From Cyclobacteriaceae bacterium (GTDB lineage: Bacteria > Bacteroidota > Bacteroidia > Cytophagales > Cyclobacteriaceae), in the NCBI GenBank assembly GCA_027067135.1, contig JAMOMJ010000261.1, forward strand, positions 1 through 37,284: a stretch of 37,284 nt of DNA, read 5' to 3'. The notes under the pieces are model-generated. The model saw nothing but the letters and a program-made list of their open reading frames with translations. It was not told the origin of the DNA and searched no databases. Both the position numbers and the translations under genes were made by a program. Of this stretch, positions 4,146 to 37,284 are shown piece by piece; the first letter of the stretch is position 1, and each line of letters opens with the position of its first letter.

Positions 4146-4226
4146 ACGTCATTCTGAACGAAGTGAAGAATCTCTATGATCAATGCATTAAAGATATGAG
4201 ATTCTTCACTTCGTTCAGAATGACGT
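4146..4226. repeat. REP/MITE-like palindromic element with perfect 29-bp arms
   Basis: acgtcattctgaacgaagtgaagaatctc (4146-4174) is the exact reverse complement of gagattcttcacttcgttcagaatgacgt (4198-4226), separated by 23 bp. Confidence 0.9.
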
Positions 4227-34315: not shown

Positions 34316-35544
34316 CAGGGAAATCGCTTTTAAAAAGTGCATTTAAAAGCAAAAAATACAATATTTTATAGTAAATTACAGTACGGTCAAAAAAAATGAC
34401 CTATACCAAAAGAGCTGTAAAAAAGTGCCCAGTTTTCAAGAAAAATTTTTCAGGTTTGCCAGATCCTCATAGGGGTCAATAAAGGAAATTACTTCTACCC
34501 CTTAGAAGAAATTCTATTTCTGACTATATCAGCTATAATTAGCGGTATGGATAATTGGACAGCAATTTCTAATTTCGGTAGATTAAAAACAGATTGGCTA
34601 CGGATTTATTTTCCATTTGAACACGGAATGCCCTCTCACGATGTTTTAGGTAAAGTATTTGCACAAATAGACTCCAATAAATTTAGTGCCTGCTTTAGTA
34701 AGTGGATTAATGAACTTTCAGAAATCACTAAAGGAGAAGTAGTTGCTATTGATGGCAAGACCATATGTAAATCAAACGATAAGCGTCTAAATAAGCGTCC
34801 ATTTCATGTTGTGTCAGCTTATGCTACCGAAAACAGAGTGTGTCTTGGACAGCAGTGTGTTGATGAGAAAAGCAATGAAATTATTGCAATACCTCAATTA
34901 TTAGACCTGTTGGTCGTTAAAGATTGCATTATCACAATAGATGCCATGGGGTGTCAAAAGAATATAGCAAAAAAGATTAGAGAAAAGCAAGCAGATTATG
35001 TTCTCATGGTAAAGGGCAATCAAAAGACTTTAAAAAACGATATTGTAGCTATTTTCGATTTAAATAAAGCGGTAAAGTATTCAAAAAAGCAGGATATTGG
35101 ACATGGAAGAATAGAAACTAGAATTTGCGAAGCAACAGAAGTAATAGCCTCAATAAAAGGAAAAAATAACTGGGAATCCATTAAGAGTGTCGTGAAAATT
35201 CGTTCTGAAAGAATTGACAAACAAAGTAAAAGAAGCTCAACAGAAACCCGTTACTACATAAGTTCATTACCCGCTGATGCAAATCAGCTTAATGATATAA
35301 TACGAAAACATTGGAAGGTGGAAAATAATCTTCACTGGGTTTTAGATGTGGTTTTTAAAGAAGACCAATCATTGAAAAAGAAAGGTCAGCCGGCTTTAAA
35401 CTATAATATTATGACTAAAGCAGCCCTAACTTTAATAGAGCAAGAAGATTCAATCAAAAAATTAAAAATTATTAAAAGGCAGTCGGCAGCGCTAGATGAT
35501 AATTACCGTACCAAAGTACTCAAAATCTAAAAGCGATTTCCCTG
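34316..35544 (+). mobile_element. ISAs1-family insertion sequence, 1229 bp
   Basis: Perfect 17-bp TIRs cagggaaatcgctttta (34316-34332) and taaaagcgatttccctg (35528-35544). Encodes an ISAs1-type DDE transposase. No flanking duplication visible. Confidence 0.9.
34396..35530 (+). pseudogene. ISAs1 family transposase with frameshift near 34480
   Basis: Frame A 34396-34482: MTYTKRAVKKCPVFKKNFSGLPDPHRGQ*. Frame B from 34481: KGNYFYPLEEILFLTISAIISGMDNW...VVAIDGKTI...CIITIDAMGCQKNIA...HWKVENNLHWVLDVVFKEDQ, to the stop at 35530. Confidence 0.85.
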
Positions 35545-36680
35545 CTGCTCAACCCAGGAAGTATTTATATCCGATATGGAATAGGTTGGCTAGCGGCAGT
35601 TATTTCCCAAAACCTGTGCGTGAAGTTGAAATACCCAAAACAGATGGGAGAAAGCGAAAGCTGGGCATCCCCACGGTACAAGACCGAACAGCCCAAATGG
35701 TAATAAGGGAAGAGCTTGAAGCAAAAGTGGATAAGCATTTTAGCAAGAGTTCTTTTGGTTATCGCCCCAATAAATCAGCCCACCAAGCCATAAAGCAATG
35801 CAGGGAAAACTGTATGAAGATGGACTGGGCGATTGATTTGGACATCAAGAGTTTTTTTGATGAGATAGACCACGATTTGATGATGAAGTCATTGAGTGCC
35901 TTTACCCAAGAGCGGCATATTCACTTGTACGTAAAACGATGGCTGGAAGCACCAGTACAGAAGAAAGATGGTAGTATTCATAAGAGAGACAAAGGAACAC
36001 CGCAAGGAGGGGTTATAAGTCCATTATTGGCAAACATCTTTTTGCACTTTGTTTTCGATAAGTGGATAGAGAAGTACCACCCGGAAGTAAAGTTTGAACG
36101 TTATGCCGATGATATTATTATTCATTGTCAGAATTTCAAACAAGCGATGCGAACATTGGAAGCGGTGAAAGCTAGATTTAAGCAATGTAAAATGCAGCTT
36201 AAAGAAGGCAAGAGCAATATAGTTTATTGCAAACGCAACCAAAAGAAGCATCCACCCTTTAAGGTTCATTATGTAACATTCGATTTTCTCGGATTTACCT
36301 TTAAACCAAGAATGGTAAAAGGTTACTTTGGGCACTTTCATTTGGGCTTTACACCATCCATTAGTCGAAAGAGTCAGAAACGGATAAATCAGATTCTGTT
36401 TAAGTTAAGAATCCATCGTATGGTTCACTTGCGCCTGCCCGATTTGGCAAGGATAATAGCGGACAAGGTACGGGGTTGGATTTACTACTATGGCAGAGTT
36501 CGGATGAGTGAACTACATTATGTGTTCAGGTTTTTGAATAAGCGACTTGCAAAATGGGTAAGCAACAAGTATCGGAGGTTTAGGAATAAGCACTGGTTTT
36601 TTGCCTACAAATGGTTGCAGGAAACTGCCAAGCAGTATCCTAATATGTTTGTGCATTGGCAAAAGGGCTTTATGCCTTAG
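35545..36680 (+). pseudogene. Group II intron reverse transcriptase/maturase, N-terminally truncated (ORF track begins at 35496 inside the IS)
   Basis: LYPIWNRLASGSYFPKPVREVEIPKTDGRKRKLGIPTVQDRTAQMVIREELE, FGYRPNKSAHQAI, GTPQGGVISPLLANIFLH, RYADDIIIH, maturase domain ADKVRGWIYYYGRVRMSELHYVFRFLNKRLAKWV. Confidence 0.88.
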
Positions 36681-36713
36681 AACCGCCAAAAAGGCGGTCA
36701 GACTTGTTAAGAA

Positions 36714-36747
36714 GAGCCGTATGATGTGAGAGCATCACGTACGGTTC
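36714..36747 (+). ncRNA. Group II intron domain V
   Basis: gagccgtatgatgtgagagcatcacgtacggttc: 34-nt hairpin with AGC triad and GAGA-type tetraloop region. Confidence 0.9.
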
Positions 36748-36800
36748 TGTGAGAGGTTTAGGGGTGAAACTCCCCCTTTACCTACTCGACTTTCTTCTTT

Positions 36801-37284
36801 TTCTATTCTGACGAAGGAAGAATCTTCTAAGGTTTGATGAGAGTGTAGAGCTGTGTTGTAGAGGATTCTTCTCCGCTAAATAGCGGATCAGAATAAAAAG
36901 CGAAAGGCAGGCTGTTTTGTTATTAGCAGACATAAGGGCTTAATTCTGCCAGCTTCCTTAGTTCATCGTATCTCAGTATCCTTTTCTATTCTGACGCAGG
37001 AAGGATTTTCTAAGGCTTGATGAGAATGTAGAGCTGTGTTGTAGAGGATTCTTCGGCTTATGGCCTCAGAATGAAAAGCGAAAGGCAGGCTGTTTTGTTA
37101 TTAGCAGACATAATGGCTTAATTCTGCCAGCTTCCTTAGTTCATCGCATCTCAGTATCCTTTTCTATTCTGACGAAGGAAGGATTTTCTAAGGTTTGATG
37201 AGAGTGTAGAGCTGTGTTGTAGAGGATTCTTCTCCGCTAAATAGCGGATCAGAATAAAAAGCGAAAGGCAGGCTGTTTTGTTAT
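36801..37284. repeat. Tandem array of ~180-bp units (at least 2.7 copies, truncated by window end)
   Basis: ttctattctgacg recurs at 36801, 36984 and 37162 (spacing 183 and 178 bp) with the full unit conserved, including ggcaggctgttttgttat and gcttaattctgccagcttccttagttcatcg. Confidence 0.93.

Follow-up and report, generated by a model that had tools for sequence, protein, structure and literature searches.

A tandem array of REP-like hairpins in a Cyclobacteriaceae genome, probably a non-autonomous derivative of a mobile GIY-YIG nuclease element

The window analysed here, 37,284 nucleotides long, is the entire contig C261 of a 3.47-Mb draft genome (81% complete) of a Cyclobacteriaceae bacterium. 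Its final 486 bases form the only tandem array that TRF finds in the window (36799-37284, forward strand; period 178, 2.7 copies, 90% matches, score 853). The array is cut off by the assembly break at the end of the contig, and 2.7 is the number of units up to that point. The initial annotation had described a non-coding array with swapped hairpin tips at this place. We find that the array is real, that its left arms begin at 36805, 36988 and 37166 with the spacing described, and that no open reading frame of at least 90 amino acids covers it. In an Rfam search of the window there was no match at the array, and a known-RNA identity was rejected on this ground; the sole match was domain V/VI of a group II intron (36712-36790, forward strand), which ends an intron copy lying directly next to the array; this is a neighbour rather than a part of the unit.

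Each unit is made of two REP-like hairpin arms (ATTCT..AGAAT), inverted and facing each other, and a spacer of ~90 bp. The arms, ATTCTGACGAAGGAAGAATC and GATTCTTC-tip-TCAGAAT, are separated by ~40 bp, and the units read TTCT.ATTCTGA at the left and AGAAT.RAAAAG at the right. All features of the array lie on the forward strand. In unit 1, the left arm ATTCTGACGAAGGAAGAAT (36805-36823) is identical in the GIY-YIG elements of two other contigs, C29 and C73; the right arm ATTCTTC-TCCGCTAAATAGCGGA-TCAGAAT (36865-36894) was located by folding and pattern match, and the spacer that follows (36895-36981) is the same as one found on C29 downstream of ftsZ. Unit 2 has a degenerate left arm, ATTCTGACGCAGGAAGGAT (36988-37006, from unit alignment and folding), and a right arm ATTCTTC-GGCTTATGGCC-TCAGAAT (37048-37072) whose tip recurs in the GIY-YIG element of C73. 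The next spacer (37073-37159) and the left arm of unit 3, ATTCTGACGAAGGAAGGAT (37166-37184), were placed by unit alignment, and the right arm of unit 3, with the tip TCCGCTAAATAGCGGA (37226-37255), by folding and pattern match. As had been reported, copies 1 and 3 carry the tip TCCGCTA-AA-TAGCGGA, and the tip of copy 2 is different and also folds.

When folded as single-stranded DNA, the two arms of a unit form a three-way junction, in which the outer stem is TATTCTGA/TCAGAATA, the inner stem is GAAGAATC/GATTCTTC and the tip is a side hairpin. The folds of units 1 and 3 were better than those of 200/200 shuffled sequences (z -5.5 and -3.0). The whole fold of unit 2 was not significant (z -0.6); its right arm alone beat most shuffles (z -2.6). 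The shoulder ATTCTTC/TCAGAAT recurs across the genome with at least 25 distinct tips of 5 to 18 nt, a non-exhaustive set that was transcribed by hand from pattern-search output. Self-complementary pairs number 76 in these 25 tips; 10,000 shuffles gave 14 on average and never more than 31. The 11-nt tips have 97% of their cells paired and reach a covariation score of 0.279, compared with 0.113 for shuffled tips and at most 0.109 for slid partners. Because tip pairing and covariation exceed the shuffles, the suggestion that structure is conserved above sequence holds not only in the array but genome-wide: the tips differ and yet stay self-complementary. Such compensatory changes would also be expected if the units encoded a structured small RNA or a transcription terminator with a selected hairpin. 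However, the array lacks an Rfam match, the same hairpins occur in both orientations at scattered sites of the genome and also frame nuclease genes, and the length of the tip changes freely, which makes an RNA or terminator function very unlikely.

The proposals of the initial annotation that the units are amplified and REP-like are both supported. We argue that they belong to the CGTC superfamily of REPs, which are widespread intergenic repeats, include dRS3 of Neisseria and RPE-4/RPE-6 of Rickettsia, and, according to Di Nocera et al. (2013, PMC3733652), apparently have no transposase of their own. Every intact arm is a palindromic stem with AT as its first two pairs, as in CGTC REPs. Pattern searches of the whole genome gave 146 matches to the hairpin pattern on both strands, against 33 for a control pattern, so that high genome copy number and head-to-head dimers, with the arms paired in each unit, are also shared with CGTC REPs. 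The palindrome near 4146, whose resemblance to the arms had been pointed out, is of the same repeat family (CGTCATTCTGAACGAAGTGAAGAATCTC ... GATTCTTCACTTCGTTCAGAATGACG, 4147-4225): by pattern match it is a stand-alone, CGTC-tagged REP pair with the stem class of the array (CGTCATTCTGA ... TCAGAATGACG). The CGTC tag is found in this pair and at 65 CGTCATTSYGAR sites genome-wide, compared with 1 site for the reversed pattern. The pair at 4147-4225 therefore fits the published description, with a CGTC/TGTC tag, an AT-first stem, a short unpaired tail, head-to-head dimers and many intergenic copies. In contrast, the array units have lost the end tag in any of its forms (CGTC, TGTC or CCTC) and are therefore a derived form, and the ATTCT class differs from CGTC REPs in that its stem has two parts and its tip is freely exchanged.

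Searching the genome with the array gave matches on C29 and C73. Two successive units lie downstream of ftsZ on C29: the first is of the array type and has the same spacer, and the next encloses a gene for a GIY-YIG protein of 108 amino acids; on C73, a second copy of this gene lies between ends that are the same as those of the C29 and array units. The array units and the GIY-YIG elements of this genome thus share their ends, with one array-type unit adjoining a gene-bearing unit of the same spacer. Two further genes belong to the same clade of nucleases, hereafter clade 1: that on C365 is framed by ATTCT hairpins, and that on C281 by a different palindrome, ATTCCTGCGTAGGCAGGAAT (ATTCC). No such flanking hairpins were found at the GIY-YIG genes of this genome that are clade-2-like or of the UvrC and pol III epsilon type; we named the latter two by reading long open frames rather than by a family search. 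At one locus (L010:1370-1810), a GIY-YIG gene is situated directly between a tRNA-like sequence and an apparent second, degenerate copy of it.

Two GIY-YIG genes are enclosed by the ends seen in the array, and next to one of these genes is an array unit whose spacer is the same. The array is therefore best read as a GIY-YIG derivative without the nuclease. In our view it is probably the product of tandem amplification of a REPIN-like, non-autonomous derivative of a small mobile single-domain GIY-YIG module framed by CGTC-superfamily REP hairpins. The direction of descent, from a GIY-YIG element to the array rather than by capture of a gene by a REPIN, is our reading of the shared ends. Alternatively, an ordinary REP pair could simply have been duplicated in tandem at the site of the array, with no special mechanism, and be related to the nuclease through shared REP ends only. 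Its units differ by few bases, it is short, and recombination alone can amplify repeats. The recurrence of both arms and the ~90-bp spacer on C29 directly beside the GIY-YIG-bearing unit is against this explanation, to which we return below.

For GTAG REPs, mobilisation is ascribed to RAYT (Y1 tyrosine) transposases, and the initial annotation had named RAYT genes and group II introns as possible companions of the repeat. Neither is a companion here. The genome has a few Y1_Tnp genes, which is what could be said for RAYT transposases mobilising the REPs with the GIY-YIG gene as a passenger. However, no RAYT-like gene was found near these hairpins in this genome, no hairpins of the array type flank the Y1_Tnp loci (L048-L051), and the tag of these repeats is CGTC instead of the GTAG of RAYT REPtrons and REPINs. 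In the 2013 survey, CGTC repeats did not flank any tyrosine transposase gene (PMC3733652). A RAYT origin, already disfavoured for these REPs, is thus hardly credible. The group II intron is not the recurrent companion either. Its 3' half occurs once in the genome, therefore its position beside the array represents one event, the adjacency is incidental, and an intron-linked origin of the array was rejected. The recurrent companion, the GIY-YIG gene, was not visible in the initial annotation because it is on other contigs.

The window carries the 3' half of the intron once and C29 carries a 5' half once, and the two overlap over 179 nt of RT sequence, in which they are 99% identical. The two halves may be one intron, and the array would then come after the GIY-YIG element of C29 in the chromosome. 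A repeat of ~262 bp with ends like AGGGCTTGCTGAAAAA is present inside the 5' half of the intron (L007:470-732) and at dozens of sites in the genome (47 matches). At 34317-35550 of the window, an ISAs1 transposase gene (NF033564) directly adjoins a group II intron RT copy that is truncated at its 5' end; this junction is either an IS insertion with a deletion or an assembly join.

The companion nuclease has a GIY-YIG domain (PF01541, E about 1e-15). The nuclease alignment is invariant at the columns that correspond to the catalytic Y, Y, R, H, E and N of the GIY-YIG family, and the PDB yielded no sequence relative of the nuclease. We gathered clade-1 genes by protein similarity alone and looked at their flanks. 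In 60 genomes of the same class, the density of GTC-tagged hairpins was 2.94/kb within 100 bp of the gene, 1.57/kb at 100-250 bp and about 0.1/kb beyond 2 kb, and GTC was the commonest of the 64 triplets preceding hairpins near the gene. A hairpin with 6 perfect pairs was detected at only 13/60 of these loci, and one with a tolerated mismatch at 28/60 within 400 bp. A motif-free comparison showed that the 250-bp flanks of one gene repeat each other, directly at 34/59 and inversely at 33/59 loci, against about 1% of random positions. On plasmids and chromids of Cyanobacteria, Bacteroidota and alpha-, beta- and gammaproteobacteria, tagged palindromes were seen by eye beside 11/11 genes. The tag reads CCTC/CTC at the Sinorhizobium and Rhizobium loci, a variant also listed in the 2013 survey (PMC3733652), and dRS3-type repeats flank a gonococcal GIY-YIG gene.

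Similar results were obtained with 80 named loci, mostly from Pseudomonadota with some from Planctomycetes, Chloroflexi, Nitrospira, Ignavibacteria and candidate phyla. A tagged hairpin was found within 350 bp of the clade-1 gene at 71/80 loci, and on both sides at 53/80. The density of tagged hairpins was 7.67/kb near the gene and 0.08-0.17/kb farther off, a difference of about 50-100 times; the tags point away from the gene (upstream 49/63, downstream 45/63), and a scan blind to the tag recovered the CGTC/GTCA tag and a TCCA tail de novo. No tagged hairpin was detected nearby at 9/80 of the named loci and in part of the class sample. The association of clade-1 GIY-YIG genes with CGTC REPs across phyla is strong. 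Unlike the CGTC REPs as published, which had no dedicated transposase or associated enzyme gene, the repeats described here have this GIY-YIG clade as their constant companion. Our literature search, with subscription papers and preprints outside its scope, found no paper linking GIY-YIG nucleases to REPs.

The gene was also more frequent in REP-rich genomes (58/73) than in others (93/322; Fisher p 1.7e-15, from a hand-set threshold and a hand tally of listed counts that ignores kinship). In 15 REP-rich genomes there was no clade-1 gene at E 1e-8, and some of these have weak or broken matches. Genome G040, one complete contig with 608 CGTCATTSYGAR tags, had no clade-1 GIY-YIG match at E 0.01, and G349, G164 and G308 are also REP-rich without the gene. 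Many tags on the G040 contig C1 lie in short tandem clusters of about 16-40 bp. Several genomes contain tandem arrays of similar or near-identical GIY-YIG genes, with up to 10 copies and a period of 345-600 bp (G108:C9:906073-910392; G095:C2:234372-235265; G101:C12:57599-58183; G074:C14:36971-37536; G001:C5:13133-13959). These observations bear on both sides of the question of plain duplication, in that tag clusters in the nuclease-less G040 favour it, whereas the tandem arrays of the GIY-YIG genes themselves are against it. We regard plain duplication as a doubtful but not negligible explanation of the array.

Stem classes (GC, CC and CT types) were defined after viewing the stems and assigned to 83 genes. 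On a nuclease tree made from 91 columns, in which many forks are unresolved, stem class changes 12 times, compared with a mean of 38.5 in global shuffles. When shuffling of the classes was confined to paralogues within a genome (14 genomes, 34 genes), the mean was 25.4 and the fraction of shuffles reaching 12 was 0.0002; because such shuffles so rarely reach 12 changes, different nucleases of one genome carry their own stem class. REP stem class tracks the phylogeny of the nuclease and not the host.

Evidence for movement came from empty sites. Between sufB and sufC, Azospirillum lipoferum 4B has a REP pair, the GIY-YIG gene and a second REP pair, while A. ramasamyi, A. oryzae and strain B510, whose aligned suf genes are ~95-96% identical to those of A. 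lipoferum 4B, have neither CGTC REPs nor the gene. In Sphingobium, the gap between fnrL and a regulator gene contains REP-gene-REP in seven plasmids, a lone palindrome in TomTYG74, and neither REP nor gene in TomTYG72. The REP-nuclease-REP modules are therefore insertions that are absent at the same site in close relatives. We looked for a target-site duplication, and the Azospirillum and Sphingobium junctions were too diverged to call one.

It is conceivable that the REPs are landing sites, cut by an independent mobile GIY-YIG gene that neither moves nor makes them. Specific recognition of a target would yield an equal correlation of stem and nuclease, and the solo REP-like palindrome of TomTYG74 stands at the position of the filled site. 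On the other hand, the Azospirillum relatives lack both REPs and gene, so the two arrived together; TomTYG72 likewise lacks both, and the genes of C29 and C73 are inside units with the same ends as the gene-less array units. We therefore consider landing sites an unlikely explanation.

The reading of the repeats as REPIN-like and nuclease-driven remains the most economical. We propose that the nuclease recognises the stem, or the tag and tail, of its own REP class and makes a putative cut at REP DNA or at a target. Repair copying, with REPs as ends or as homology, could then spread REP pairs, whether they carry the gene or not; every step between the cut and the copy is presumptive. Internal deletion would give rise to short REPINs and to the ~90-bp unit, and recombination between neighbouring units to tandem arrays such as that of C261; the tandem arrays of whole GIY-YIG genes fit this proposed amplification. 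Since the recognised part would be the shoulder (ATTCTTC/TCAGAAT) and the hairpin shape, tips may vary freely and could be exchanged as long as they still pair.

Such elements would resemble REPINs and RAYT REPtrons in having paired inverted REPs as ends, an enzyme gene framed by REPs and gene-less, non-autonomous copies, but their enzyme is a GIY-YIG nuclease instead of an HUH tyrosine transposase, their tag is CGTC instead of GTAG, and no RAYT gene is nearby. With free-standing GIY-YIG homing endonucleases they share the catalytic domain (PF01541) and, presumably, selfish spread through cleavage and repair. Unlike those endonucleases, the gene is not in an intron and is framed by REPs, and gene-less derivatives and tandem arrays abound. 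In a wider sense, we are inclined to believe that CGTC REPs of many phyla, including Neisseria dRS3, are mobile ends and non-autonomous copies of GIY-YIG elements, REPIN-like and nuclease-driven, with co-evolving pairs of nuclease and stem and with exchangeable tips. How CGTC REPs spread was left unexplained by the 2013 survey; a candidate enzyme partner makes the question experimentally testable, and matched nuclease and stem classes can be swapped. If this is true, the very common annotation of a small 'GIY-YIG nuclease family protein' marks a mobile element.

We would also like to mention a second GIY-YIG clade (L173-L191). Our first sample of GIY-YIG genes, the top Pfam scorers, had no CGTC hairpins; it represents this second clade and was then used as a control. 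These genes have their own flank repeats, which are palindromes of another type (CTGAGCTTGTCGAAG / CCTTCGACAAGCTCAGG), and CCTTCGAC is near 6/20 of them and absent in the far flanks. As the second clade appears to be paired with a different palindrome, of the CCTTCGACAAGCTCAGG type, the pairing of nuclease and REP may be general.
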